Source: Pedobacter schmidteae (GTDB taxonomy: Bacteria > Bacteroidota > Bacteroidia > Sphingobacteriales > Sphingobacteriaceae). Taken from it: a stretch of 42,467 bases of DNA. Below are positions 4,104 through 19,202 of this stretch, one piece after another (position 1 is the stretch's first letter; every line of letters begins with the position of its first letter). A program made the translations under genes and the position numbers. The stretch covers positions 1-42,467 of the forward strand of contig CAMDKO010000013.1 of assembly GCA_945901155.1 (NCBI GenBank). The letters are read 5' to 3'. Under the pieces are notes generated by a model that was not told where the DNA came from, did not search any database, and worked only from the letters and a program-made list of their open reading frames with translations.

Positions 4104-4796
4104 ATGCTAGCAAAGACCTTTGGAAGTGCCGTTTATGGGATCGAAGCAATTACCATAACCATAGAAGTGAACGTTTGTGGAGGGCTAAAATATTTTGTTG
4201 TTGGTCTGCCCGATAATGCGGTAAAAGAAAGTATGTTGCGCATTGAAAGCGCATTAAATAGTTCAATCTATCGCATGCCCAGGAAAAGGATCATCGTAAA
4301 TTTGGCTCCGGCCGATATACGAAAAGAGGGTTCAGCCTATGATCTGCCAATTGCGATCGGTATTTTATCTGCTTCAGGGCAATTTTTCAGCACTAAACTC
4401 GATGAATACCTCATTCTAGGAGAACTCTCTCTGGATGGAGGTATACAGCCTGTAAAGGGGGTTCTTCCCATTGCTATTCAGGGTAAAAGAGATGGATTCA
4501 AGGGTTTGATCCTTCCCAAAGAGAATGCTCGTGAAGCTGCAATTGTAGATGATTTTGAGGTTTATGGTGTGAACAGCATTGCAGAAGTGCTCGGTTTTTT
4601 TGACAATAGCCTTGAACTGCAAAGAACCATCATCAATACTAAAGAAGAGTTCAGCTATAATATCAATAATTACGAAAGCGATTTCTCGGATGTCAGAGGG
4701 CAAGAAAATATCAAACGGGCGCTAGAGATTGCAGCCGCCGGTGGGCATAATGTGATAATAATAGGTAACGATAATACCACTATGTTAACTAATTGA
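4104..4796 (+). pseudogene. comM: comM/yifB, 5' half, interrupted by integrated element
   Basis: This is the N-terminal part of a YifB/ComM Mg-chelatase-like AAA+ ATPase, the hexameric helicase that promotes branch migration during natural transformation. Residues 1-217 are host-encoded: a ChlI-like domain (MLAKTFGSAVYGIEA start, IVNLAPADIRKEGSAYDLPI, LGELSLDGG) and the linker DVRGQENIKRALEIAAAGGHNV. After codon 217 (GTG, 4752-4754) the frame runs into the element, which supplies IIIGNDNTTMLTN and a stop at 4794-4796. Walker A and everything after it are lost, so this product cannot be an ATPase. The remainder lies at 18315-19202; joined at the AT dinucleotide the two halves give 512 aa, the usual ComM length. 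Confidence 0.95.
4730..4785 (+). other. attL: left junction of the integrated element
   Basis: Host comM sequence ends at GTG (4752-4754), followed by AT (4755-4756), which recurs at the right junction (18315-18316). Neighbouring bases differ on both sides (G-AT-A on the left, T-AT-T on the right), so the identity is just the dinucleotide, as expected for a serine recombinase. From 4757 inward, AATAATAGGTAACGATAATAC is the element arm; it mirrors the arm at the right end. The crossover position is deduced from reading-frame restoration and this symmetry, not from an observed empty site. Confidence 0.85.
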
Positions 4797-4799
4797 AAA

Positions 4800-5423
4800 T
4801 CACTTGATTAGTTGAGAAACCTTTAATGTGGTATTGATACTCACATTAGTCATTCGTGATACTTCACGGATAGATAATCCTTTTTCAAGGTATTTGATTA
4901 CTTCGGGGTATTTCTTTATGGTCTTTTCCTTAGTATCTCCTGTGTTCTTTGGACGACCCAACACGACACCTTTATTTTTTAGGTTCTGTAACGCCACCTT
5001 GACCCTTGTTTTGAGTGTATGGGTCTCCATCTTGGCAATCTCCGCCATAAGGGATAGAATTAGTCCTGTAATATGATTTTCTTTACCCGTATCGTCTAAT
5101 GTATGTAGGTTGAGGTTCTGAATGTAAAGAGATACGTTATTCTCCGTTAAAAAGGATAGTAGTTGGTGAAATCCCAAACTGGTTCTACTGATACGACTGA
5201 TTTCCCAACACACCACAACTTGTGGTTTCTTTTCTAAAACAACATTCCTTAATTGAGTAATTCCTTCTCTATCCTCATTTTTCTTCGTGCCGGAGATTGT
5301 TTCTCTAATCGTTTCAATAATTTCCCAATCATTTTTTTTACAAACATCAATCAATAAGTTCTCTTGATGTTCGTATTCTTGGATAAGAGTTGATTTTCTA
5401 ATGTATAAAACTACTTTTTTCAT
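4800..5423 (-). CDS. Small serine recombinase, resolvase/invertase type
   Basis: This 207-aa protein is of the size of Tn3-type resolvases and DNA invertases. The catalytic domain starts with VVLYIRKS (nucleophile candidate Ser11). The helix with WEISRISRTSLGF carries the conserved arginines, and a long E helix (SLMAEIAKMETHTLKTRVKVAL) follows. GVVLGRPKNT leads into a C-terminal helix-turn-helix (GLSIREVSRMTNVSINTTLKVSQL). It could resolve element dimers, invert a segment, or help the large recombinase. It ends 44 bp inside attL and is transcribed toward the junction. Its upstream region holds nested inverted repeats that may be its site. Confidence 0.88.
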   Translation of the reverse strand: MKKVVLYIRKSTLIQEYEHQENLLIDVCKKNDWEIIETIRETISGTKKNEDREGITQLRNVVLEKKPQVVVCWEISRISRTSLGFHQLLSFLTENNVSLYIQNLNLHTLDDTGKENHITGLILSLMAEIAKMETHTLKTRVKVALQNLKNKGVVLGRPKNTGDTKEKTIKKYPEVIKYLEKGLSIREVSRMTNVSINTTLKVSQLIK

Positions 5424-5426
5424 ATT

Positions 5427-5499
5427 GGTTATTTTATATAAAAATAGTCATAATCTGGTGATTACCAGTATATTGTGAATTTATTTTGTAATAATAACC
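5427..5499. promoter_or_regulatory. Nested inverted repeats upstream of the small recombinase (candidate res/operator site)
   Basis: An outer pair, GGTTATT (5427-5433) and AATAACC (5493-5499), encloses an inner perfect pair, CTGGT (5455-5459) and ACCAG (5464-5468), with loop GATT. The two pairs are nearly co-centred (5463 and 5461.5). They lie in the divergent gap between the recombinase and the lipoprotein, where resolvases usually bind. The function is an inference. Confidence 0.35.
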
Positions 5500-5553
5500 T
5501 TAATATATTTTACTTAACTTAGTATATCCTTAATTATTAAACTAAAGTTCTGT

Positions 5554-6894
5554 ATGAAAAAATACTTAAAATATATATTGATAATTTCAATATTCTCATT
5601 TTTTCAAAGTTGTGGAAAAAATACAAATCAGAATGATTTAGAAAAGATAAATCTAAAAGGGGATGTTATATTTGTTGGTTTTGATGAAGGGGGGAAGCTT
5701 AGTAAGGATATTTGGGAGTTTGATAACAATGGAAATTTTATAAGAACAATAGAATATATTGATTATGAAAATCTTATTATTTTGTATGAAACTTCTTTCA
5801 CAAGAGATACCACTAATAAACTAATTACTGAAAACAAACACTGTTTTTTTAATTATGAGAGACAACCCATTTTTCCAATTACAAAAAAATATAATTACCT
5901 AAATGATAAATTATCCACAATAACTTATCAAACAATGACTGGTGATGATGTATCAGAAAAATATAAATACGAAAATGATAATTTAGTAGAAATTAAAGAA
6001 GTATTTTATTCTAAAAATCAAGATTTTAGAAGTTCAATTTCGACAACAAATTTTTTTTATAACAAAAAAAATAATCTAGATTCAACTAAACAAATTACTG
6101 TATATGAAGACGGAGCTATTGGAGGTAAAAACACAAAGATTTATCTGCCAAATGGACTTTTAAAAAGTGATGAAAATTATCTTAACAATTTTGATGAAAA
6201 TAAATCCCTCGAAAATTTTACAGTTTCATTAAGAGAATATAAGTATAATGATAATAATGATTTAGTCGAAGAGAAGGTAACTGATTTGAAAAAAAATGAA
6301 GTTACTCAGTCAATTAATTATAATTATATTTATGATAATAAGAATAATTGGATTGAAAAAACAAAAATCTCCAACGATTCTAAAGATCAAGATGTAGTAA
6401 AGAGGAAAATAATTTATAAAGGGGAAAACTACACAGAATTTATTGCCAAATATGATTTATTCATTTTAACGTACAAATCTAGTTCTAAAGAGTTAGATCG
6501 GAGTTCTATAAAATTAGACGAAGAGTCAACTTCTGTTCCAGTTTTTCAAAGTCAAGATAACGAAAATACAGTTTCTAATAATACCCCACAACAACAGGAA
6601 AAAAGAAAATGTTATGATTGTAATGGAACGGGTCAATGTTCAAAATGTTCTAAACCTCAAAGGGTAAGATATAAACAAGGTGAATCACCGCATGATCACA
6701 ATGAAATCCGACAAGGTATGATTGTTTGCCATCAGTGTGGTGGGAATTTAATGGATTTCGGATCAGATAAAAATAAAAGTTGTTATTTATGTAAGGCGTC
6801 TGGATGGTTGAACTGCCGTGAATGTAATTCAAACGGAAATGGACAACATATTGGTCAATGTCAAACTTGTAAAGGAACGGGATATAGAAATTAA
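5554..6894 (+). CDS. Lipoprotein with YD-like repeats and C-terminal DnaJ-type zinc-finger cysteines
   Basis: Unrecognised 446-aa cargo protein. A lipoprotein signal ends at Phe-Gln-Ser-Cys (lipidated Cys20), so it should sit on an envelope membrane. Residues ~60-310 contain loosely repeated strand-turn units of the form KYENDN, EYKYNDNNDL and YIYDNKNNW, reminiscent of YD/RHS-like repeats. The C-terminal ~95 residues hold six CxxC pairs (353/356, 362/365, 392/395, 410/413, 421/424, 436/439), several in the CxxCxGxG setting of the DnaJ zinc-binding domain. It is the only long gene at the left end transcribed opposite to the recombinases. Its 3' end overlaps the next gene by 4 bp tail to tail. 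The role is unknown. Confidence 0.75.
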   Translation: MKKYLKYILIISIFSFFQSCGKNTNQNDLEKINLKGDVIFVGFDEGGKLSKDIWEFDNNGNFIRTIEYIDYENLIILYETSFTRDTTNKLITENKHCFFNYERQPIFPITKKYNYLNDKLSTITYQTMTGDDVSEKYKYENDNLVEIKEVFYSKNQDFRSSISTTNFFYNKKNNLDSTKQITVYEDGAIGGKNTKIYLPNGLLKSDENYLNNFDENKSLENFTVSLREYKYNDNNDLVEEKVTDLKKNEVTQSINYNYIYDNKNNWIEKTKISNDSKDQDVVKRKIIYKGENYTEFIAKYDLFILTYKSSSKELDRSSIKLDEESTSVPVFQSQDNENTVSNNTPQQQEKRKCYDCNGTGQCSKCSKPQRVRYKQGESPHDHNEIRQGMIVCHQCGGNLMDFGSDKNKSCYLCKASGWLNCRECNSNGNGQHIGQCQTCKGTGYRN

Positions 6895-7136
6895 TTATTT
6901 TCATTTTTTTTATAAATATATCTTTCACAAATACCGGCAATAAAATAACTAATGTGGTCTATCTCTCCGTGAAACCCAACTTTATTGTTTTCAGGAAACA
7001 CATTACTTGATTTCAATTTCTCTTCAATTACTTTTTTAACGAAAAGAACTGAATCCTTTTTTCTTGATTTAGGTTTCACTTTTGGGTCTAATACAATTTG
7101 GAATATCACACCTTCCTTATCTTTTACCTTTTTCAT
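6891..7136 (-). CDS. Hypothetical 81-aa basic protein
   Basis: A small Lys-rich protein (KVKPKSRKKDSVLFVKKVIEEKLK) with an ordinary ATG. It overlaps the 45-aa ORF upstream by 20 bp in another frame and the lipoprotein tail-to-tail by 4 bp. It appears to be the last gene of a short minus-strand series (7945 to 6891). I do not recognise a family. Confidence 0.5.
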   Translation of the reverse strand: MKKVKDKEGVIFQIVLDPKVKPKSRKKDSVLFVKKVIEEKLKSSNVFPENNKVGFHGEIDHISYFIAGICERYIYKKNENN

Positions 7137-7254
7137 TTTCTAAAATATTTTTCGTTGAATTCACTAATCGTTTTAATTGAGTTTCATTTATTATGATTTT
7201 CATTTTTTTTTGTTTTTTTGGTGATTTGTTTACTATTAAATCTGTCATTTTCAT
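7117..7254 (-). CDS. Small 45-aa ORF with a phage-like ITExQL-type segment
   Basis: The minus strand reads MKMTDLIVNKSPKKQKK and then MKIIINETQLKRLVN, ending in EKGKR and TAA at 7117-7119. The second part resembles the short I-I-x-[ET]-x-QLKRL[IV] leader seen in many environmental phage proteins; that resemblance is from memory. An inner ATG (codon 18) begins exactly at this segment and could be the true start. It lies between the 224-aa and 81-aa genes on the same strand, with a 16-bp gap upstream and a 20-bp overlap downstream, which supports a real polycistronic gene. Confidence 0.45.
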   Translation of the reverse strand: MKMTDLIVNKSPKKQKKMKIIINETQLKRLVNSTKNILENEKGKR

Positions 7255-7270
7255 ATTGTGTTGATTAGTG

Positions 7271-7945
7271 TTATCTTGAATTTATAGTTTGGTAAACTCC
7301 AGTTTTATTGTTGATTTTTAATCCAAATGGTATAGGTCTCTGTTCTTTTATCTTATAAATTTCATTGAGGACATCTTCACCAAGTTTTAATACTGGGATT
7401 GATTTACAATCAACAGAAACTCCAATTTTAATTGAGTGTTTGATTTTATCTAGGTTATAAACTCCCAAATATTCAAAGGAATAAGTAAAGTGTTTGTTGA
7501 TTTTCTTTAATCTGTATTTAAGTTGTGTATCCATTCTGACATCAAGATTATCTTTATTGGAGTAGAAAAGGAAATGGTTATTAAAAGTTGGATAGTCATT
7601 TTCGTCTTTTTGTTCTATTGAATAATACCTACATCCGCTTTCAACAAACATTCCCCACCATGAACGATTAGACACTGAACTAATTGATGATAATCCATTT
7701 ATTAGTTCCCTCCCAGTTTTCTTTAATGGATCAAGTGAAAAATGGTGATATGTCTCACGGGTGGGTTTGACGGAAATTACTAAATGGTAGAAATGTTTAG
7801 ATAAGATTTGTATATCCTCTTCTATGCCAAACAACTTTGTAATTCGTGATCTGTTGATCTCATCCCTTTTTGTCTGGCATATTTCACATTCAATAAATTT
7901 CGGACATAGGATTTCGTGGTTTTCAATCATAAGTTTCTTTACCAA
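7271..7945 (-). CDS. Hypothetical protein with weak Rep_1-like organisation
   Basis: Unrecognised 224-aa protein. Its layout recalls rolling-circle Rep proteins of the Rep_1 type. There is a Cys-rich start (C14, C20, C23 with CQTKRDE), a strand HLVISVK (54-60), a W-W-G-M-F segment (96-100), then an acidic stretch with E111 and FNNHFLFY (121-128) at the place where HUH proteins have their His-hydrophobic-His pair. Only one His is present there, so if it is a Rep relative the metal site is altered. The 280 bp upstream contain a perfect hairpin (8001-8018), where an origin could lie. No firm assignment is possible. Confidence 0.6.
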   Translation of the reverse strand: MVKKLMIENHEILCPKFIECEICQTKRDEINRSRITKLFGIEEDIQILSKHFYHLVISVKPTRETYHHFSLDPLKKTGRELINGLSSISSVSNRSWWGMFVESGCRYYSIEQKDENDYPTFNNHFLFYSNKDNLDVRMDTQLKYRLKKINKHFTYSFEYLGVYNLDKIKHSIKIGVSVDCKSIPVLKLGEDVLNEIYKIKEQRPIPFGLKINNKTGVYQTINSR

Positions 7946-8000
7946 TAAATAGATTGGATTTGATAAAGAGTGGTAAATTGAGAGTGAAAAATAAAATTAT

Positions 8001-8018
8001 CTCGTCACGATTGACGAG
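8001..8018. repeat. Perfect hairpin CTCGTCA-CGAT-TGACGAG
   Basis: A 7-bp perfect stem (8001-8007 with 8012-8018) with a 4-nt loop, 55 bp upstream of the 224-aa Rep-like gene. It stands out in AT-rich DNA by its GC-containing stem. It has no T-tract, so it is unlikely to be a terminator; an operator or a replication/nicking hairpin is possible. The surrounding gap 7946-8225 has no gene I can support. Confidence 0.5.
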
Positions 8019-8225
8019 GAGGTCAATCCCTTTTGGATAAATAGGGTTAAAAAGTCACCAGACACCCCATATTTTGATTTTAATATATCGGGAGTGGTAT
8101 TATGAGGTTTCAACGAGTGAGTGTCCCAGATTGACTAAAAATACCCAAAAATTTCTTGATCGTTAGGGACATCCATTTTTTGAATAAAGAATATACAGGG
8201 AGGAAGTAGTGGGATACAGGGGGGT

Positions 8226-9224
8226 CTAATTAGGTATTAGAGATTTCTTGAACTTCAATTTTTGAGATAATTCATCATAGTCGTCATAGTTTAAGAATTC
8301 AATTATCTTATCATATTGTTCTATGAATATTTCTGTGAAACGAGTTCCATCTATTAGTTGGATAGTTTCTCTTTCTTTGTCTTGGGCACTCTCAATAGCC
8401 TTTTTGTTGAATGTTGAAAGGGTTATGAAACAACCCTGAAAGTCCTTTTTCAACGCACCCCTAAAACTTCTAATATCCTTTTCTCCAATAACACCCTTTT
8501 CATATCTCTTTACTTGAACTTGTAAATTGATTGATGCGACACCAAATACATCTAAAACTCCTTCGTAATCAATCCCTCCATCACCAACTTTACCTGTTTC
8601 TTGACTTGCGTCAAATCCTAATGAACGAAGAACATATGAGACCAATAACTCAAACTCTGTTGGGTCTAATTGTAAGAACCTTCTTCTAATCAATTCATAG
8701 TTTGATTTAGGTGTGAATATAATTTCCTGGTCTTGTGTAATTGGTGTAATACTTAAAAGTCCAATTTGTGATAATATCTCTTCACACATTACAACCCTAA
8801 AACAAGTTAAAGATGACTTCAAGGTACTTTGTAATGGAACTGAAAGAGTATGTCGGTCAATAAGATCTGGAAACCATCCTACACTTTTACGCCAAGGGTA
8901 AGGAGATGTATCATCTTTCTTGTAGAATATATCACTTGTAATTTTTCCTACTAATAGTTCTTTGGTATTGAAGGGTGAGATTACTATATCCCCGATTTTC
9001 ATTTCATTTACAAAACGAAGTATTTGACCCACATTTTGGTTTATTCTCATAGGAAGGTCTGTTGGATATACCTTTTTGTATTCTTCCTTTAAGGTCTCTT
9101 TATTGGTCAAATCAAATGACGATGGTTGGTTTTGGAACCAACCAATACCTATGTAGTTTTCTTTCTTAAATGTATCAGTATATCTACCGAAGTCTGCCCT
9201 TAAAACGTAAACATTTGGGTTCAT
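8226..9224 (-). CDS. Mrr-family restriction endonuclease with N-terminal EVE/PUA-like domain
   Basis: The C-terminal ~145 residues match the Mrr_cat PD-(D/E)xK fold. TEFELLVSYVLRSLGFD holds E192, GKVGDGGIDYEG holds Asp219, and QVQVKRY holds the QxK pair Gln237/Lys239. Residues 1-~150 form a separate domain, with a start like NVYVLRADFGRYTD and a strand GDIVISPFNTKELLVGKI. This is similar in style to the EVE/PUA-like modules that read modified bases in type IV restriction enzymes. A modification-dependent nuclease is therefore likely (inference). It follows hsdMS by 12 bp and is the last gene of the hsdR-hsdMS operon. Confidence 0.82.
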   Translation of the reverse strand: MNPNVYVLRADFGRYTDTFKKENYIGIGWFQNQPSSFDLTNKETLKEEYKKVYPTDLPMRINQNVGQILRFVNEMKIGDIVISPFNTKELLVGKITSDIFYKKDDTSPYPWRKSVGWFPDLIDRHTLSVPLQSTLKSSLTCFRVVMCEEILSQIGLLSITPITQDQEIIFTPKSNYELIRRRFLQLDPTEFELLVSYVLRSLGFDASQETGKVGDGGIDYEGVLDVFGVASINLQVQVKRYEKGVIGEKDIRSFRGALKKDFQGCFITLSTFNKKAIESAQDKERETIQLIDGTRFTEIFIEQYDKIIEFLNYDDYDELSQKLKFKKSLIPN

Positions 9225-9236
9225 ATGGATTATTTT

Positions 9237-11618
9237 TTATTCACCCCAAATCTTATTGATTCTGTCCTGAATCTTTTGGGTGTAGATTTCAATTAGTTTT
9301 TTATTTCCTTCTATGATTTGTCTTTCACTTTCAATTCTTTCAACTATTGATTGTTGGATTTCTAATGGTGGGTATGGGATTGAAAGTTCAAGAATTGTAG
9401 ATTGTGATATTGATGGTTGTCCTCCAACTTTCGCGTAATTATTTAGATTTAGAGAGGTGAGAATTATTGATAGATATTCTAATTTAATTTCCTTATAAAA
9501 TTGAGTAATGTAGAGTCCATTATCCGTAATCCAACATTTAGGAGAAGTAATATGAACTACTCCACAATATTCTCCAACTCTTCCAATCACGATTGTTTTC
9601 TCTTCAATAAAATAAGAGTTGTGAAATCCACTAATACCATTCCCTCCAAAAACTTCATATTCTCCTTCAATCATATCTCTCTTTACTAACCCTTTTCCAC
9701 TTGAAAGCTTTATTAAATCTTCTAATAAAATCATCTCCCAACTTGTGTCTATTTCAATAACTGGTTTGTAATTATCTACAACTTGTTTGGCACCATCTAT
9801 TATCTTTTGGTATTGTTCTAATTCACGGACGATTTCCTCTTGGACTTCTATTGGTGGGACTGGGATAAGTAAGTCCTCAATTTGATTTTTATTTATATTA
9901 TCAAATATCGCACCTGAATTACCTTTTATTTTGTCTTGATTACCTTTTAAGAAATAAAATAGATATAACCTATCAATCTTTTCACTTGACCTTAAAGCAC
10001 ATAGTCCTCTTCCTATACAAATCTCAAATGGAACAAGATTGACCGGGCCAACTGGAGCCCTAACAGACATAACAACATCTCCATAAATTGATGTTTTAGT
10101 TATTTTTTCAGTGTAGTTTTCTGTTTTATTTAGATATAATAATCCAAAGTCAGTTCTTCCTTGATAAAAAGGAAGTCCAATACCATTTGTATTGTAGAAA
10201 TTACTTTCAGGAGATTGACCTGAAATAACTTCAACTACTTCTTTTAGTTTAACGACAGGAAAAGATGATGTTCTTATGGATTTTGACACATATCTATCAT
10301 AACTCAATCCAATATCAGTCGAACCCAATATCTGTTCTTTGGGAACATAAGTCAGTTTTTTACTTTCAACTACTTTTCCTTTTCTTAATCCTTCCAAATA
10401 TTCTGTTACTTCCTTTGTAAGTATAGGTAAGTCGTTCTTTTCAATTTCTCTTCTTTGAGAACCCAAGTCAAACCCATCATTATCAACTTTCCCAAAGAAT
10501 ATCTTATCCGTCTTTTGAGATAGTTCCTTATCCAAAATTAGGATTGATGTTTTTACTCCACTATAAGGTTGGAATACACCACTTGGGAGAGATATTATAC
10601 CAACAAGATATTTCTCAACCATCGACTTACGGAGTGACTTGTAAGCAATCCCTGATTGGAAGATAATTCCTTCGGGAACAACAATCCCTGAACGACCCTT
10701 TGGAGTTAAATGTTCCATTATGTAATCCACAAATAGAACTTCCGCACGATTTGATTGAATTGAAAATCTCTTATGTGGTTTAATTCCACCTTTTGGAGAC
10801 ATAAAGGGTGGGTTCGCCAATATCACATCATAGTATTCATTCCATCTCTCTTCACTTGTTAGTGTGTCGTATTCGTAAATCTTGGGATTACTGAAATTAT
10901 GTAGGTATAGATTTACCAAAGACAATCTAACCATATCAGGTGATATATCATATCCACTAATATTCTCAACTAATTTATTTCTCTCATCGGGTGTAATTAA
11001 ATCACCAAGATTTTTCTTTGTATTGTTTCTTAAAATGTGTTTGTATGATGATATTAAAAAACCGGAGGTTCCACAAGCTGGGTCTAAACACCTCTCGTTT
11101 TTCTTTGGTTGTATCAACTCGACAATAAAATCTATGATATGTCTTGGTGTTCTAAACTGACCTGCGTCACCTTGACTACCCAAAACTGATAGAAGATACT
11201 CAAACGCATCACCCAACTTCTCACTATGAGAATAATGAAACTCATTTATTCCTTTAAGGAATAGTTTAAGTGTTTCAGGGTCACGATAGGGTAGGTATGC
11301 GTTCTTGAATATATCACGGAATAATTGAGGAATGTTTGGATTAAGGTTCATCTTTACAATACCTTCTCCATAAAGAGAAATCATTTCATTTCCACCTATT
11401 CTTGGATTGAATATATTACCCCAACTATATTTTTCATATTCACCAACAAAATAATTAGGTATTCCTCCCATCTCAATAGATCCCAAATCCATATCATACA
11501 TGAACTTATAGATCATGGCAATAGTGATCTGTTCCACCTGTGATTTAGGGTCGGGAACTTTACCTACAAGTATATTCCTACAATCATCAATCCTTTTCTT
11601 CGTTTCTTGGTCTAACAT
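9237..11618 (-). CDS. Type I restriction-modification HsdM-HsdS fusion (N6-adenine methyltransferase plus specificity subunit)
   Basis: One 793-aa polypeptide joins two subunits that are usually separate. Residues ~1-440 are the HsdM part: QFRTPRHIIDFIV, SAM motif DPACGTSGF (179-187), catalytic NPPF (269-272). From ~455 onward there are two HsdS target-recognition domains (beginning FPVVKLKEVVEVISG and WEMILLEDLIKLSSG). Each is closed by a conserved dimerising helix region (PVPPIEVQEEIVRELE and PYPPLEIQQSIVERIE). It should methylate adenine in a bipartite site and guide HsdR. It is transcribed after hsdR with a 16-bp gap and before the Mrr-like gene with a 12-bp gap. Confidence 0.93.
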   Translation of the reverse strand: MLDQETKKRIDDCRNILVGKVPDPKSQVEQITIAMIYKFMYDMDLGSIEMGGIPNYFVGEYEKYSWGNIFNPRIGGNEMISLYGEGIVKMNLNPNIPQLFRDIFKNAYLPYRDPETLKLFLKGINEFHYSHSEKLGDAFEYLLSVLGSQGDAGQFRTPRHIIDFIVELIQPKKNERCLDPACGTSGFLISSYKHILRNNTKKNLGDLITPDERNKLVENISGYDISPDMVRLSLVNLYLHNFSNPKIYEYDTLTSEERWNEYYDVILANPPFMSPKGGIKPHKRFSIQSNRAEVLFVDYIMEHLTPKGRSGIVVPEGIIFQSGIAYKSLRKSMVEKYLVGIISLPSGVFQPYSGVKTSILILDKELSQKTDKIFFGKVDNDGFDLGSQRREIEKNDLPILTKEVTEYLEGLRKGKVVESKKLTYVPKEQILGSTDIGLSYDRYVSKSIRTSSFPVVKLKEVVEVISGQSPESNFYNTNGIGLPFYQGRTDFGLLYLNKTENYTEKITKTSIYGDVVMSVRAPVGPVNLVPFEICIGRGLCALRSSEKIDRLYLFYFLKGNQDKIKGNSGAIFDNINKNQIEDLLIPVPPIEVQEEIVRELEQYQKIIDGAKQVVDNYKPVIEIDTSWEMILLEDLIKLSSGKGLVKRDMIEGEYEVFGGNGISGFHNSYFIEEKTIVIGRVGEYCGVVHITSPKCWITDNGLYITQFYKEIKLEYLSIILTSLNLNNYAKVGGQPSISQSTILELSIPYPPLEIQQSIVERIESERQIIEGNKKLIEIYTQKIQDRINKIWGE

Positions 11619-11634
11619 ATTATTTCAGTATCAA

Positions 11635-14124
11635 TTAGGATACAAACTTATTTAAAGGAACATAATTTTTGATGTAATCAGGTATAATCTTTCTGTATTC
11701 TTCGGGAACATTCTTGAAAAATTGACCTGATGGGTGGGTATTCAGTAATCCATATTTTTTACTTTCCACAATATCCCTTAATTCTCCGTCAGTTAGGTAA
11801 GAATGGAAAAATCCCTTGATTGTATCGTAGTCATTTGAATTTGGTAAGTATCGGTCATCAAACTTATCAAACTCCTCTTCTAATAATTGGTTCTTGTTCT
11901 TTATGAATGGTATTTTACCGAATACAAGTTGAATAAGTTCCTTTATGGTAATTCTTCTATCAATATCTAATGACTTTCTCAACTTATCTAAATTGAAGTA
12001 TTCGTTAGGTTTATCAAACTTCTCTTTTACCAAGTAATCCTCCAATCCCTCCCAATCTTGTTTTTCTACCATATCAACAATAGTTGAATCACTTTTAGTT
12101 TCTTCCTCAAAATGACCGAAATACATCTTATCAATCTTCATTCCTCCATATCCAACTTCATTTTGTTTAAGTGAAACTAATGGGTCAGGATTTATATTGA
12201 GGTATTCATCTAATGATATGGTTGGTGGTTCTCCTGGTAGTTTAGATTTTCCTTTACCCTTTGGAAGTTCTAATATTTCATCATAATTGAACTTCTCCTC
12301 AAAGTATTCACAATTCCCAAAGAAGTCAAATAACTTGAACTTTACTTTGTTTGGTTCTTCAATTTCAGGTAGGTTATTTTTATCTATATATTGGTTGAAG
12401 AAGTTATGTTTCCTTGTTCCTCTTCCTTTCATTTGGACAAAGTCACTTGGGGAGAACACGGGTTTCATTAAACATACATTCAATAAGTCAGGACAATCAT
12501 AACCAGTCGTCATCATACTACATGTAACGCAAATACGGGTCTTTGATGTGATGTATATTTCGTTGAAATTACCACTACCATTCAACTTATTATTGGTAAA
12601 GTTCGTAGTATATCTTTGAGCATCATCAACATTTGATGTTACTTGGACGGCAAAGTCACTATTATACTTGCCGGGGAACATTTTATCACCGAACTCATTT
12701 AATATCTGTGTGATTTTAGTGGCGTGTTTTTGAGATACACAAAAAACAAGGGTCTTTCCAACTTCACCTGTAATTGGGTCTCTAAAACAATTATCCAATA
12801 GTGTTTTACAGAATATTCTATTGGTTTCATCACTAAAAAACTTTTTCTCAAAGTCCCTTACTCCTAATACTTCCTCAACATCATTACCAATTTCGTCTTT
12901 ATCCTTGAATGTGTAACCTTCATCACTTAAAAGTTGTGTAGTAATTTCTGTTCTTGCGTCAATTACAACAGGATTGATTAAATACCCATCTTTAACTCCA
13001 TCTAATAATGAATACCTAAATGTTGGATTTCCACTATCACACCCGAATGTGTGGTATGTATCCAAAATCATTCTTCTCTCTAATTCACGAGGATCATTTT
13101 GAGATATGTTTTCCTTTTCAATTCGTTTAAGGTAGTCCTTTGGAGTTGCCGTCAATCCTAATTTGTAACCGATGAAATACTCAAATACGGAACGGGAATT
13201 ACCACCAATACTTCTGTGTGCTTCATCACTAATTACGAAATCAAAGTCGTTTGGTTGAAATATCCTCTTGTATTTGTTCTTAAACATAAAGGACTGAATG
13301 GTTGATACAACTACTTCTGCCTTTCTCCATTCATCTTTGTTTTCTTTCCACACTACACAGGTATAATCGTTTTTCAATAGGTTATTGAATGACTTTTGTG
13401 CTTGGTCTTCTAATTCTATTCTATCAACAAGGAACAAAATTCGTTTCGCATTCTCGGTTCTTAAAAATAACTTGATAATACCTGCTGATACACTGGTTTT
13501 CCCCGAACCGGTCGCCATCTCCCATAAAAATCTATCATTACCTTCTTTAATACTTTCTTGAACTGACTTGATTGCCTTGATTTGGTAATCACGGAGAAAA
13601 CAAAGTTTATTATTGGTAATGAACTCTTGTCTTGTCTTCTCGTTTATGAAATCAGGGTGACTTTTGTAAGTAGGGAATTGTGTTTGGACTATAAAGTCAC
13701 TATCCACAACTTCATTGATGATTAAATCCCTTTTTGGTTTATAATCTTCATATCCAACAAGTGTTTCTTGGGTTGGAAATACATTAATCACACGAGGATT
13801 ACCACTTTCAATATCCCACAGGTAATGAATATTACCATTAGATAGAATTATAAACCTCGCCTTGATATTGAGAGCGTAGGTTCTCGCCTGTTCTTTTCCA
13901 ACCAGTGGGTCTCTTTCTTCTCTTTTAGCCTCAACAACAACTAATGGGAAACCTTTTTTATCCAATAAGAGGTAGTCAATAAATCCAATATCGTTAGTAT
14001 CAGTTTGTTTGACTTTCGGTTCTACAATAACATTAGATTTGGTGTCATGGGTATCAACTAATATCCAACCACTTTCTTCTAATAACTTGTTGATTTTTAA
14101 CCTACTTGTTGCCTCTTTTGCCAT
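11635..14124 (-). CDS. hsdR: Type I restriction enzyme R subunit (HsdR)
   Basis: 829 aa. The N-terminal nuclease has Asp50 (GFIDYLLLD) and the E-A-K triplet 65-67 of a PD-(D/E)xK site. The SF2 motor has ATGSGKT (204-210), DEAH (300-303) and LTATPKD, and a C-terminal helicase lobe with TGYDCPDL and MKGRGTR. With the fused HsdMS it would translocate and cut DNA lacking the host methylation pattern. It is first in the operon hsdR-hsdMS-mrr. A TAnnTTTG box lies 23 bp before the ATG, and a divergent ParB/methylase gene starts 82 bp away. No disruption is visible, so it should be active. Confidence 0.95.
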   Translation of the reverse strand: MAKEATSRLKINKLLEESGWILVDTHDTKSNVIVEPKVKQTDTNDIGFIDYLLLDKKGFPLVVVEAKREERDPLVGKEQARTYALNIKARFIILSNGNIHYLWDIESGNPRVINVFPTQETLVGYEDYKPKRDLIINEVVDSDFIVQTQFPTYKSHPDFINEKTRQEFITNNKLCFLRDYQIKAIKSVQESIKEGNDRFLWEMATGSGKTSVSAGIIKLFLRTENAKRILFLVDRIELEDQAQKSFNNLLKNDYTCVVWKENKDEWRKAEVVVSTIQSFMFKNKYKRIFQPNDFDFVISDEAHRSIGGNSRSVFEYFIGYKLGLTATPKDYLKRIEKENISQNDPRELERRMILDTYHTFGCDSGNPTFRYSLLDGVKDGYLINPVVIDARTEITTQLLSDEGYTFKDKDEIGNDVEEVLGVRDFEKKFFSDETNRIFCKTLLDNCFRDPITGEVGKTLVFCVSQKHATKITQILNEFGDKMFPGKYNSDFAVQVTSNVDDAQRYTTNFTNNKLNGSGNFNEIYITSKTRICVTCSMMTTGYDCPDLLNVCLMKPVFSPSDFVQMKGRGTRKHNFFNQYIDKNNLPEIEEPNKVKFKLFDFFGNCEYFEEKFNYDEILELPKGKGKSKLPGEPPTISLDEYLNINPDPLVSLKQNEVGYGGMKIDKMYFGHFEEETKSDSTIVDMVEKQDWEGLEDYLVKEKFDKPNEYFNLDKLRKSLDIDRRITIKELIQLVFGKIPFIKNKNQLLEEEFDKFDDRYLPNSNDYDTIKGFFHSYLTDGELRDIVESKKYGLLNTHPSGQFFKNVPEEYRKIIPDYIKNYVPLNKFVS

Positions 14125-14146
14125 ATCAGGAATTGAATGTATGTAT

Positions 14147-14154
14147 CAAAATTA
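14147..14154 (-). promoter_or_regulatory. -7 box for the hsdR operon
   Basis: The minus strand reads TAATTTTG, matching TAnnTTTG, 23 bp upstream of the hsdR ATG in the 81-bp divergent gap. No clear TTG is seen at -33. Confidence 0.4.
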
Positions 14155-14205
14155 AAGTTAAACCATTTTTTTGCTACATTGAGGTTATATCCTAATATTT
14201 AGTTT

Positions 14206-15684
14206 ATGATTATCAGGAACGTCACATTATCCAATCTATCCAGTCACCCTCTCAATGATGAAATCTATATGGGTAATATGGATATTGACGATTTAATGGA
14301 AAATATCAAACAGATTGGACTATTAGAACCACTAGTTGTCATAAAGTCTGGTAAACCCAAATCATATCTTATTCTGTCGGGTCATAGAAGGTTTTTATGT
14401 TTGCAAAAACTTAATTACGAAAAAACAGATGTCAAATTGATAGAAGTTGAAGAGGAGGATATTCCTCTTTTCATAATTTCTTACAATAGTACAAGACTTA
14501 AAAAAGCTACAACTCTTTTAAGAGAAATTGATATTCTCGAAAAGTACTATTACACAAGTAAAGAAAATAAAAATGATGTCGTCACAAATGCCGAGTTAAT
14601 CAAGGGGGATAAAAGAAAGGTTATTAGTAAAAGGATAGGTATTGCGGAAGGTCAAATAAGTAAATTAAAAACAATTAGGTCAATCAGACCTGAACTACTT
14701 GAAAAGATTGATTTGGATGAAATTTCAATTTCACAAGCACATATACTATGTAAGAGGGAAACTCAAGAAGATCAATCAATTACTCCCAACTTTATAAGGG
14801 GTAAAAAGAATACTTCAAAAGGGAGATTTAATATTTTTTGTAAATCCTCTGTGGATATGTCTGAAATCCCCAGTGAACAAATAAATGCAATCATATGTAG
14901 TCCAGTTTTCTATCGTCATAGGATTTATTCTAAAAAGTCTAATGAACACGGGAATGAGAAAAATGTAGAAGATTATATCAGTAATGTTTGTGACGTTATG
15001 GATGAGTGTTTTAGGGTGTTATCAAAAAGTGGAGTGATGTTCGTTCATTTAGGAAATACGTATGACAAAAATGGTTCCCTAATGAATATTCCACATAAAA
15101 TTGTAATTGAAATGATGAAAAGGAAACCCTTTTTATTAATCAACGAGATTTGTGTCCGAAAGGTCAACCCAATTCCAAATTCAGTAAAGACAAGGTTGTC
15201 TACATCTCACGAGGTAGTGTTTTTCATCACTAAATCAAGAAAGTACAATTTCAATCATTTTAGAATTAAGTCAAAAACTGAAAACAATTCTACACCATAT
15301 CATAGAGGAAATCAATCTGGATATTCCCCTTATTTGAGTGATGGTAAAAAGAACTTACAAGATTATTGGGATAGTGAAATGTTAGATATAATATCAACAC
15401 CTGTTGCAAATCAAATTAAATCTAAAAAACAATTTAATATTCTTCACCCATGTCCATTTCCAGAAGACCTTCGTAGGTCTTTACTTGCGTTAGTTACACC
15501 AAATCTAACTCCTACAAATAGAATTAAAAATATGAGTGATTTCCATCTCCTAGATTGTTATAGTGGACTTTCTGGAGTTCTTTTTGATGGATATACCCTC
15601 GGAATGTCCGTCTGGGGTTACGATACCAATTCTAATTACACGAAGGTTGTGATAAAGGAGTTTGAAAGGTTAAGTAAGGTATAA
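14206..15684 (+). CDS. ParB-like nuclease/CTPase domain fused to a divergent N4/N6 DNA methyltransferase
   Basis: 492 aa in three parts. Residues 1-~100 are a ParB N-terminal-like domain with the SGHRRFLCL box (58-66). Residues ~105-185 look like a ParB/KorB helix-turn-helix region (KRIGIAEGQISKLKTIR, then EISISQAHIL). Residues ~205-492 are a DNA methylase, with EICVRKVNPIPNSVKTR and STSHEVVFFITKSRKY exactly as in the N4/N6 beta class. The catalytic SPPY(W/Y) is here SPVFY (232-236), and the SAM motif DPFxGSGT is DCYSGLSGV (450-458). Activity is therefore uncertain. Such ParB-methylase fusions occur in phages and islands. It is divergent from hsdR, so it could regulate or protect that operon (inference). 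Confidence 0.8.
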   Translation: MIIRNVTLSNLSSHPLNDEIYMGNMDIDDLMENIKQIGLLEPLVVIKSGKPKSYLILSGHRRFLCLQKLNYEKTDVKLIEVEEEDIPLFIISYNSTRLKKATTLLREIDILEKYYYTSKENKNDVVTNAELIKGDKRKVISKRIGIAEGQISKLKTIRSIRPELLEKIDLDEISISQAHILCKRETQEDQSITPNFIRGKKNTSKGRFNIFCKSSVDMSEIPSEQINAIICSPVFYRHRIYSKKSNEHGNEKNVEDYISNVCDVMDECFRVLSKSGVMFVHLGNTYDKNGSLMNIPHKIVIEMMKRKPFLLINEICVRKVNPIPNSVKTRLSTSHEVVFFITKSRKYNFNHFRIKSKTENNSTPYHRGNQSGYSPYLSDGKKNLQDYWDSEMLDIISTPVANQIKSKKQFNILHPCPFPEDLRRSLLALVTPNLTPTNRIKNMSDFHLLDCYSGLSGVLFDGYTLGMSVWGYDTNSNYTKVVIKEFERLSKV

Positions 15685-16171
15685 TATACCCAAAGTTTGA
15701 CCCATGGTCAGTGAACTTGTGTGTATAAATCGAGGATGAAATATTACTTAAAACAGGTTCAACATAAACTACTCCGTGTTTTCCTCTTATTTCATTGTGT
15801 TCAACTACTACTTTTCTGTGTTTATCTATTTTCAATATCTCACCTGTTGTGGGACTTACCAAATTCTTTATTTCTCTAATAAGGATTTCTCTATCCCCTA
15901 TAATCGGTTTTTTAGTAGATTTTAGATTTTCTTGTAGTTGTAATATTAAATCCTTGTCCGATGTCTTTATAAGACTATGAGAATGTTTATGATTTGAATA
16001 CTTGTCATTTTCCCAAACATAACAGATATGTTCATAATCTACACCTTTGAACAGGTATTGTATTTGTCTATTCATTGAAAGTGGTGTAACATTTATTCTT
16101 GGTCTATATCTGACATTATAGTCAAAATCCAGTTTTCCTGTGTTTAATCCATTAAAAATTGAAGTTTTCAT
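15632..16171 (-). CDS. Hypothetical protein with an HxHxH (HUH-like) motif
   Basis: 179 aa, not recognised. The segment EHICYVWENDKYSN followed by HKHSHSLIKT has His61, His63 and His65, with a hydrophobic stretch after them. This resembles motif 2 of HUH endonucleases (Rep/relaxase), where two His bind the metal. Near the C-terminus GYIIPY (161-166) offers a Y-x3-Y pair. These are suggestive short motifs only. Its last 53 bp overlap the ParB/methylase gene tail to tail. It lies just downstream of the large recombinase on the same strand but behind that gene's terminator, so it is probably transcribed separately. Confidence 0.6.
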   Translation of the reverse strand: MKTSIFNGLNTGKLDFDYNVRYRPRINVTPLSMNRQIQYLFKGVDYEHICYVWENDKYSNHKHSHSLIKTSDKDLILQLQENLKSTKKPIIGDREILIREIKNLVSPTTGEILKIDKHRKVVVEHNEIRGKHGVVYVEPVLSNISSSIYTHKFTDHGSNFGYIIPYLTFQTPLSQPSCN

Positions 16172-16343
16172 ATTGTTGTTTGTTAGTATAATTGCATAGT
16201 AAGTGGAATTACCCTCTATGTGGTTTTATTTATTATTCCAAGTGGAAAGGAATATCTATAAATAGTAAAGAGTTGAGAGGAATACCGAGTTGTCTCAAAA
16301 AAAACATTCATATATCATAAGACGATTAAATCAAGAATATTGC

Positions 16344-16371
16344 ATAAAAAAATCCCCAAAATAGGGGATTT
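16344..16371 (-). terminator. Rho-independent terminator of the large recombinase gene
   Basis: An 8-bp perfect stem, AAATCCCC (16350-16357) with GGGGATTT (16364-16371), and a 6-nt loop. Read on the minus strand it is followed by a run of seven T, 39 bp after the recombinase stop codon. Confidence 0.8.
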
Positions 16372-16409
16372 CAAGGGTGTAAAATCTAATACCTTTATTT
16401 TGAGGCAAT

Positions 16410-18248
16410 TTAAGATGGTGACTTTAACTTAAAAAATTGAAATCGATCGATTAAATCTTTGTATTGGAGTAATTGAATTTCATCAAGAGGTATTGTGATT
16501 TCTTTCTTTCTTTTAGATTGGGAATAATCTGTAAGGATAATTCCTTGTTTATCCTCTGTTAATCTTAATTCTTCTGTTGTTTTGTATGTCTTTATGTGTT
16601 GAGTATTTTTTTTGTCTAAAACTACCCACGTCTTTGATTTTAATTCTGTTAATAGTCTGGTTCCCCCGTTTAATTCTTTGGGTACTATTATTTCTGTAAT
16701 TGGATGATAACTATAAAGGTTAAAATTCACTTCAATTATGGAATATCGAGTTCCTTGAAAAGTTATGTTTATCTTAGAAATGAATAGGTTGATATACTTC
16801 TTTAATAACTCTTTAGAGTTTTCAATTATATCAAGATTGGGTTTAACTGAACTAAATAGATTATTAAAATCAATCTCGTTAGCCATTAAACTTATCTGAA
16901 CTTTAGAAATTTGGTTTTCTAAACGATTTCTTTCTTTATCTAATTTTTGTAGTTTCGAAGTAATGGTATTGATGAACTCTATACCTGAGATATTCTTAAA
17001 ATTCCTAAACCCTTTCATCGATTCACTCATTGATGATACTTCTTCATCTATTTGGGTAATTCTTTCTTCTAATAACCTTAATGAGTTCTTAAGGGGCTCA
17101 ACTTCATTATTTGGATTATAATTTGAAATTACTTTGGACAATAAGTAAAAATCTGTTTTAATTAAACTCCATATTACACTATCCATCAATGACATTCCGA
17201 TTGATTTAGTGTTTTTGCAGAATTTCATACCACTTCTACTACTACATCTATAACTACTTCGATCGTAACCATTGATATTTCTGTAATTTCCACTATAATG
17301 ACTTTCACATTTATCACACTTAATCAGTTGGGATAGAAGTGTGATATTTTTAGTGGATTTGTCAACTCTTGAGTTCTTCTGTATTAAACTTGATTGTGCA
17401 AGGTCAAAAGTTTCTCTATCAATGATTATGGGGTATTTTATTTTATTGTTAGTAATAAAATATTTCTCTTCAGACCCACCATCTTCATAATTTAAATTTT
17501 TCCTTTTGTTATTGGTAATTTTTTCTCCTGTATACCCTTCCTCTTTTAATAATTTGTTTACATTTCTCTTACTATGAGTATACTTCGGTAATCCTTTTTT
17601 TACACATTCTATTGAAATACGTCTTATTGATACATTTTTCTCACTTTTATCAATTCCGTTTATATACCAATTAAAAATAGTTCTTACTACTTTAGAGTTT
17701 ACAGGGTCTAAAATATATGTGTTTTTATCTCCTTCCCCTTTTACTCTTTTGTAACCAAATAATAGTTTACCTGGAATTGAATACCCCATTTCCATTAAAC
17801 TTTGTTTTGCCCTTCTAAATCTATCTTTTTTCTGTTTAATTTCAGATTCTGCGAAAAGACCATAAAGGCTAAACATCATATCACCTCCCATCGTCACTTT
17901 ACCATTTTCATCAAATAATGAATACCCAATATCTTTTACGAATAATTGGATTTTATTCTTTACTAACCATTCCTTTATCTGATGTAAAACACTTTGTCGT
18001 CTACCAATTCTTGAAATTTCTGTTGAGAATACAACATTGTATTTTGGATTATCCTTAATAAATGAGAATAGTTGATTAGTCCCGATTTTCTTATCTAAAT
18101 CAGCTAATCCACTTTCTTTTGTTTCAATTATCTTTAGTTGGTTATAACCTAAGGAAAGAGCATATTTCTTAAGATCTTCAGTCTGAGGGTCATTACTCTG
18201 ACCCATAGTACTAACCCTTACTAATAAAATCGCAAACTTTTTTGACAT
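16410..18248 (-). CDS. Large serine recombinase (integrase/excisionase of the element)
   Basis: 612 aa with the full large-serine-integrase architecture. The catalytic domain (1-~150) begins FAILLVRVSTMGQS, with Ser13 as nucleophile, and has STEISRIGRRQ. The recombinase domain (~160-290) contains GYSIPGKLLFGYKR, VRTIFNWYINGIDKS and RRISIECVKKGLPK. A zinc ribbon has CDKC plus later CSS and FCKN cysteines. A coiled-coil stretch (LRLLEERITQIDEEVSSM and LDKERNRLENQISKVQ) precedes the C-terminal part. The gene starts about 70 bp inside attR, the usual arrangement with the attachment site upstream. It is very likely the enzyme that inserted the element into comM. Confidence 0.95.
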   Translation of the reverse strand: MSKKFAILLVRVSTMGQSNDPQTEDLKKYALSLGYNQLKIIETKESGLADLDKKIGTNQLFSFIKDNPKYNVVFSTEISRIGRRQSVLHQIKEWLVKNKIQLFVKDIGYSLFDENGKVTMGGDMMFSLYGLFAESEIKQKKDRFRRAKQSLMEMGYSIPGKLLFGYKRVKGEGDKNTYILDPVNSKVVRTIFNWYINGIDKSEKNVSIRRISIECVKKGLPKYTHSKRNVNKLLKEEGYTGEKITNNKRKNLNYEDGGSEEKYFITNNKIKYPIIIDRETFDLAQSSLIQKNSRVDKSTKNITLLSQLIKCDKCESHYSGNYRNINGYDRSSYRCSSRSGMKFCKNTKSIGMSLMDSVIWSLIKTDFYLLSKVISNYNPNNEVEPLKNSLRLLEERITQIDEEVSSMSESMKGFRNFKNISGIEFINTITSKLQKLDKERNRLENQISKVQISLMANEIDFNNLFSSVKPNLDIIENSKELLKKYINLFISKINITFQGTRYSIIEVNFNLYSYHPITEIIVPKELNGGTRLLTELKSKTWVVLDKKNTQHIKTYKTTEELRLTEDKQGIILTDYSQSKRKKEITIPLDEIQLLQYKDLIDRFQFFKLKSPS

Positions 18249-18270
18249 CTATTTTAATTGTAATAGTGTA

Positions 18271-18278
18271 CAAAGTTA
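18271..18278 (-). promoter_or_regulatory. -7 box for the large recombinase
   Basis: The minus strand reads TAACTTTG, a perfect TAnnTTTG, 22 bp upstream of the ATG. The corresponding -33 region falls at about 18298-18300, inside the attP arm at the right end. Recombinase bound to its site could therefore affect its own transcription (inference). Confidence 0.5.
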
Positions 18279-18289
18279 CAAATTTATAA

Positions 18290-18345
18290 TATAGTATAAT
18301 AGATACCCATTAATATTCTGATCGGTCCGCCGGGAGCCGGCAAGA
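18290..18345 (+). other. attR: right junction of the integrated element
   Basis: The element arm (18294-18314) runs up to AT (18315-18316), after which comM resumes in frame with ATT CTG ATC GGT, encoding ILIG, and then the Walker A motif PPGAGKT. The reverse complement of the arm, ATTAATGGGTATCTATTATAC, matches the left arm at 16 of 21 positions. In-frame stops (TAA, TAG just before 18303) show that the right comM fragment is not fused to an element ORF. Confidence 0.85.
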
Positions 18346-19202
18346 CTATGCTAGCCAAACGCTTGCCAACCATCTTACCGCCACTTGACCTCTATGAAGC
18401 CCTCGATACCACCAAGATCCATTCAGTTGCTGGAAAACTCTCTGCATCCGATTCATTGATGACCATCAGGCCATTCCGATCTCCGCATCATACCATCAGT
18501 GATGTGGCTTTGGTTGGCGGAGGTACCAACCCCCAGCCCGGAGAAATATCCCTTGCGCATAATGGAGTACTTTTTCTGGATGAACTGCCCGAATTTAAAC
18601 GGAGCGTGCTCGAAGTCATGCGTCAACCTCTAGAAGAACGCAGGGTGACCATATCCAGGGCAAAATCAACCGTGAACTACCCTGCCAGTTTTATGCTGGT
18701 GGCCTCCATGAACCCCTGCCCATGTGGATATTTTAATCACCCCGAAAAAGAATGCATTTGTGCGCCAGGAGTGGTTCAAAAATACCTGAGTAAGATTTCC
18801 GGTCCGCTTTTAGACCGAATTGACCTCCATGTAGAAGTAACCCCAGTAAACTTTAATGAGCTCTCTTCCGAACGGCTGAGTGAAAAAAGCAAAGAGATTC
18901 GCGAACGGGTTACTGAAGCAAGAAATATCCAGATTATACGGTTTGAAGATAAAGAAGAAGTATTCTGCAATGCCCAGATGAGTCCAAATATGGTACGGAA
19001 CATTTGCCGCATCAGCGACACCGGACAAATCCTATTAAAACAGGCGATGGAAAAACTGGGTTTATCTGCCCGAGCGTATGACCGGATTCTGAAAGTTTCT
19101 AGAACAATTGCTGACCTGGCCGGTACGGACGAGATCCTGCTGGAACATCTTGCCGAGGCAATACATTACCGAAGTTTGGATAGGGATGGATGGGCTGGGT
19201 AG
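18315..19202 (+). pseudogene. comM: comM/yifB, 3' half, interrupted by integrated element
   Basis: Host sequence resumes with [18 protein letters not shown] (Walker A). It then carries the rest of the Mg-chelatase AAA+ core: [19 protein letters not shown], Walker B-type LFLDELPEF, the sensor region [18 protein letters not shown], and the Mg_chelatase_C end [12 protein letters not shown]. The first usable ATG (18348) is within the P-loop itself, so any product would lack most of Walker A. With the 5' half it reconstitutes 512 aa. The fragment is otherwise undamaged, which implies recent insertion or periodic excision. Confidence 0.94.

Follow-up and report, generated by a model that had tools for sequence, protein, structure and literature searches.

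Magnesium chelatase and ATP-dependent protease genes are enriched targets of large serine recombinases (LSRs), accounting for 12.4% of the predicted site-specific LSRs of Durrant et al. 2022, and competence genes are enriched as targets as well (PMC10083194). Like the island described here, the elements of that survey disrupt this kind of gene, and distantly related LSRs converge on the target; unlike here, the main-text passages on them name no residue, palindromic core or opposite orientations (PMC10083194). The recombinase sr1WO of phage WO uses the magnesium chelatase gene of Wolbachia, and is again an LSR whose element is flanked by the gene parts (PMC9203015), but it belongs to a prophage, whereas no phage structural family was found among the scanned proteins of our island. 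In Acinetobacter, AbaR and other islands likewise disrupt comM, and some carry defence genes (PMC11472951); AbaR is Tn7-like, unlike the island studied here, and an Acinetobacter record breaks near residues 286-288. Listeria phage A118 shares with our locus an LSR that enters a competence gene and a pseudo-palindromic attP, but its native core is the asymmetric GG, symmetric cores having been made by mutation, whereas the core here is AT (PMC3556126, PMC3783163). LSR insertion in comM-type genes is already known as a kind, and most of the novelty first claimed for an LSR in comM at this locus is already in print (PMC10083194, PMC9203015). The literature searched, mostly open-access and without supplements, yielded neither a paper naming residue 218 nor a natural LSR that has a palindromic core and islands in both orientations.

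The window, that is, the whole stretch of DNA analysed, comprises 42,467 nucleotides of a Pedobacter schmidteae contig. The nearest named comM records point to Bacteroidota as the likely phylum. The comM gene of the window lies in two parts, whose cut points are 13,560 bp apart (Table 1). Joined as 4104-4754 plus 18315-19202, these parts give 1539 nt, or 512 codons and one stop, and align without gaps with the intact comM of three same-genus genomes, with 1437/1539 (L005), 1450/1539 (L006) and 1225/1539 (L007) identical bases. The uninterrupted gene of L005 reads CATAATGTGATTCTGATCGGTCCG over the joint, where its codons are GTG ATT CTG ATC GGT. It matches the left flank of the window through GTGAT and the right flank from ATTCTG onward, so that AT alone is common to both junctions; this AT (4755-4756 = 18315-18316) is the first two bases of codon I218. 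A motif scan of relatives from the same genus, family or class found Walker A uninterrupted in 28 of 29 loci; the 29th, L013, does not match the motif and its comM has a TAG. In the genome from which the window comes, the 3′ part of comM has a single match, and the ChlI Pfam domain, found in three places, is strong only at the window's comM.

Table 1. Features of the split comM gene and of the island within it (positions in the window)
Feature	Position	Strand	Remarks
comM 5′ part	4104..4756	+	reading frame runs on to stop at 4796
AT core, left junction	4755..4756		
SSR-side attP arm (predicted)	4757..4781	+	
Small serine recombinase (SSR), 207 aa	4800..5423	-	Resolvase domain; invertase-type PHROG
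Unknown protein, 446 aa	5554..6894	+	Pfam: no family; sub-threshold DnaJ zinc-motif match only
Unknown protein, 224 aa	7271..7945	-	in all three islands (window, L130, L131)
Mrr-type nuclease	8226..9224	-	Pfam; PADLOC candidate PDC-S02
Fused type I methylase and specificity protein	9237..11618	-	Pfam, PADLOC
Type I restriction protein HsdR	11635..14124	-	Pfam, PADLOC
ParB_N domain fused to DNA methyltransferase	14206..15684	+	Pfam
Unknown protein, 179 aa	15632..16171	-	L130 has one too
Large serine recombinase (LSR), 612 aa, likely integrase	16410..18248	-	Pfam, PHROG
LSR-side attP arm (predicted)	18290..18314	-	
AT core, right junction	18315..18316		
comM 3′ part	18315..19202	+	begins just ahead of Walker A loop

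The island has a GC content of 31%, compared with 38-40% in its flanks, and its LSR and SSR occupy opposite ends, with type I restriction-modification genes between them. Pfam assigned to the nine island proteins of at least 100 aa no Tn7-like family (TniA/TniB/TniQ-type), no relaxase or conjugation family (three of the nine being without an assigned family) and no phage structural family; PHROGs, applied to six of the nine, likewise gave no phage structural gene. The predicted model of the 224-aa protein has a mean pLDDT of 40.7 and its fold search gave no match at 0.001, and it was therefore left unused. A second SSR, 61% identical to that of the window, is present in G000:C97 (L070:1403-2071); near it are a gene 26% similar to the window's ParB-type methyltransferase (L070:3310-4752) and genes for tRNA-Asp and tRNA-Lys.

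The LSR carries Resolvase, Recombinase and zinc-ribbon domains, and its gene starts at 18248, adjoining the junction at 18315. The sharing of AT alone between the two junctions is as expected for serine recombinases. Our preferred explanation is that this is probably a 13,560-bp site-specific integrative island, integrated by its LSR at codon I218 of comM. The initial annotation had described an exact insertion by a serine-recombinase island into an otherwise intact comM, and each part is borne out: by the gap-free join, by the full 512 codons with their stop, by the LSR domains and 2-bp shared core and, in the comparison with related genomes that it had proposed, by an uninterrupted sequence in all three same-genus relatives that matches the predicted joint. 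As proposed here, the LSR, rather than the SSR, would do the joining: it would recombine an attB within comM with the attP carried by the excised circle and exchange strands at AT in codon I218, immediately ahead of the Walker A loop. Insertion would break comM, presumably leaving ComM inactive, and would import a type I restriction-modification system, an Mrr-type nuclease and a ParB-fused methyltransferase; excision of the island would restore comM, and the palindromic core might let it enter in either direction.

Where else is comM broken in this family? We surveyed 400 same-family genomes at least 90% complete, in 390 of which comM was matched, and chose by eye 53 with a weak best match (best E weaker than about 1e-190); three in-between genomes (G129, G079, G415) and the ten without a match lie outside the 53. 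Fifteen of the 53, with frameshifts, fragments or nothing usable, were excluded from the break counts. The 5′ part ends at residues 280-289 in 13 of the 53 and the 3′ part begins at 347-351 in 28, with both breaks in three genomes and thus either in 38. None of the 53 showed an island at residue 218: the breaks of G466 and G120 near 212-228 have contiguous pieces and are not islands at that site. G464, one of the uncounted genomes, also has contiguous pieces, one of which ends at residue 282.

Among the 13 breaks at 280-289, eight come with an LSR and with both junctions readable, these falling on different contigs in G033 and G290; all eight have GA in common between their junctions. In G371 (L078:13324-17166) and G385 (L080:1069-5537) the break, at about 286-288, holds TniB and TniQ genes adjoining a Mu/rve-type transposase within comM, with a TnsA-like gene as well in G385; this is the region where an Acinetobacter record breaks (~286-288; L137, L138). 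G063, G208 and G253 make up the remaining three. Two statements of the initial annotation are touched by these data. Its different target point stands, at residue 218 against about 286-288 in one Acinetobacter record; its contrast of recombination chemistry by phylum does not, since the comM of one and the same family has LSR islands and Tn7-like genes.

For the 28 genomes with the 3′-part break (site C), the 5′ side was fetched in 18, and a full LSR gene lies beside comM in 13 of these, its 3′ end facing comM every time. G396 has LSR pieces beside the break, and so does G419, where the end of the fetched sequence cuts them off; none were found in the fetched 5′ sides of G120, G295 and G208. 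These site-C islands (G431, G362 and others) resemble that of the window in having an LSR beside a split comM, but they differ in their break, near residue 352, in their core, which reads TG by eye where both sides are clean, in their single orientation (13/13) and in their recombinases, all 13 of which form one supported clade of the LSR tree, separate from the window LSR. comM is therefore a multi-site hotspot in the family, where Tn7-like elements and LSR islands from different clades break it at 218, 280, about 286-288 and 352. Two genomes, G356 (L086) and G419 (L089, L125), have comM broken twice, at residue 280 and about 350, with LSR genes or pieces at both. G007 has a whole comM and an extra 3′ part from residue 352, behind a site-C-like island end (L074:3137-3622, 7324-8862), perhaps a remnant left by an island since lost, with a renewed gene next to it.

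Scanning genome_contigs with the window LSR turned up two relatives, L130 and L131. The LSR of L130, a MAG labelled Emticicia agri, is 99.7% identical and adjoins the same (3′) part of comM, which is about 65% identical to that of L005; L130 matches window positions 10288-18596 at 97%, and its contig ends within the island, so that one junction is present. The same MAG (G866) also has a whole comM (L132), 68% identical to the split comM part of L130, and the L130 contig may belong to another organism, possibly through a mixed bin. Either way, a nearly identical island in distant hosts suggests recent transfer. The two islands differ in their specificity part (window 8226-10288 versus L130:17961-18876), the Mrr-type gene did not turn up in L130, and specificity and cargo seem to have been swapped. 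In L131, from a MAG that goes by the name uncultured Bacteroidetes bacterium, the LSR is about 53% identical to the window LSR and the island interrupts comM at the same codon but faces the other way, with LSR(+) by the 5′ part and SSR(+) by the 3′ part; its junctions share ATT, which includes AT. As its SSR is 50-56% identical to the SSRs of four site-B islands (those at residue 280) and only 31% identical to that of the window, SSRs seem to be exchanged between islands. L130 and the window being one lineage, the independent islands at residue 218 number two.

Elsewhere the window LSR has no relatives in viral_contigs and only weak ones in phages and plasmids. Its own genome aside, it gave no match better than 1.3e-11 among 200 relatives and none among 395 phylum genomes at 1e-12 or 395 class genomes at 1e-30, and a PDB profile search with three LSRs as queries gave 0 matches. 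No LSR in the tree exceeds 27-28% identity to it; its own branch there is long (3.62) and its placement unsure, and no kinship is drawn for it.

Does the island insert either way round? AT is its own reverse complement, so that the core cannot set direction, and orientation-free integration is plausible given this palindromic core and the near-mirror predicted attP arms. A bolder reading, given a little short of an even chance, is a natural LSR with a palindromic AT core and a mirror-symmetric attP that inserts its island into comM either way; it could then flip the island on the spot, or excise it and so restore comM, possibly under the control of the SSR. Outward from the core, the LSR-side and SSR-side arms read ATTAATGGGTATC and AATAATAGGTAAC in the window and TTAAATAGGTAAC and GAATATAGGTAAC in L131, and the LSR-side arm of L130 reads CATAATGGGTATC. 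The two predicted arms mirror at 10/13 positions in the window and in L131 alike; AT-flanked places sampled from the window island, the one background used for both, score 3.7 on average, and a fraction of 0.0005 attains 10. All 5/5 arms read carry GGT at +8..+10, against 39/2997 island places, the five including window and L130 as one lineage and so not being independent. GGT also occurs in the right attB half of each host, as the glycine codon of Walker A. Against the preferred explanation, the left attB half has no GGT at +8..+10 in either host, and the L130 arm departs from the window arm at 2/13 positions, both adjoining the core. A search of viral_contigs for the attP pattern gave 0 matches.

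The opposed islands of the window and L131, the one mirrored pair among the two independent islands at residue 218, fit two-way recombination of symmetric cores. The A118 integrase, whose native core is asymmetric, recombines in either direction once mutation has made the cores symmetric (PMC3556126), and work cited in PMC3783163 has the central dinucleotide setting orientation. At site B, however, the shared GA core is asymmetric, yet LSR genes lie in both directions (L075, L076, L077, L079, L086, L089), those of G456 and G419 being opposed to each other although the two LSRs are related (51% identical). A mirrored island thus needs no palindromic core, and can arise otherwise, for example via a changed attP. 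This lowers the odds of orientation-free integration and of the preferred explanation, and raises those of a second one, in which insertion takes one fixed orientation and one lineage was later inverted, by the SSR, by the LSR acting on attL/attR or by recombination of the mirrored arms, or had its attP rearranged. In both window and L131 the SSR lies at the end opposite the LSR, the window SSR matches an invertase family and the mirrored arms are inverted repeats at the island ends, all of which would suit an inversion, as do the two arrangements at site B. Recombinase inversion across AT would, on the other hand, need the same palindromic core, and the SSRs of window and L131 are only 31% identical. 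We regard later inversion or rearrangement as a real possibility, though not a probable one.

That the SSR itself is the integrase is very improbable. In the window, about 44 bp separate its end from the left junction, and an SSR lies inside seven of the eight LSR-bearing site-B islands, the eighth being outside the fetched stretches; but the window SSR has a Resolvase domain only, and window and L131 have different types of SSR but the same LSR type and target. It is less probable still that the split comM is an artefact of an assembly comprising 191 contigs, since one contig holds both junctions and other assemblies show junctions too, both in L131 and one in L130. Tn7-like transposition of the AbaR type leaves a 5-bp target duplication, and the junctions here share 2 bp only. 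Although AbaR islands target Acinetobacter comM (PMC11472951) and the comM of G371 and G385 contains Tn7-like genes, the nine island proteins hold no such Pfam family and the insertion lies elsewhere in comM than the Tn7-like breaks, so that this route is the most improbable of all, verging on excluded.

ComM helps transformation with divergent DNA, a possible route of mobile-element loss, and elements in comM have been argued to guard against their own removal by transformation (PMC11472951, PMC4774983). With several break sites used by different elements in one family, the idea that comM is a repeated target becomes directly testable. The notable part of the observation is the palindromic core together with a mirrored relative. 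Orientation freedom is known from engineered symmetric cores and here, if true, would be natural; such an integrase would test how serine integrases set orientation, which matters for their use in genome engineering.

Finally, cut comM genes also occur in two phage records. In that of Acetoanaerobium phage ANDSL2_ph1 the gene lies beside an integrase and its match fails just after NPCPC (L139:2983-5143); in that of an Evtepia phage the match ends at residue 305 (L140:4205-5110).
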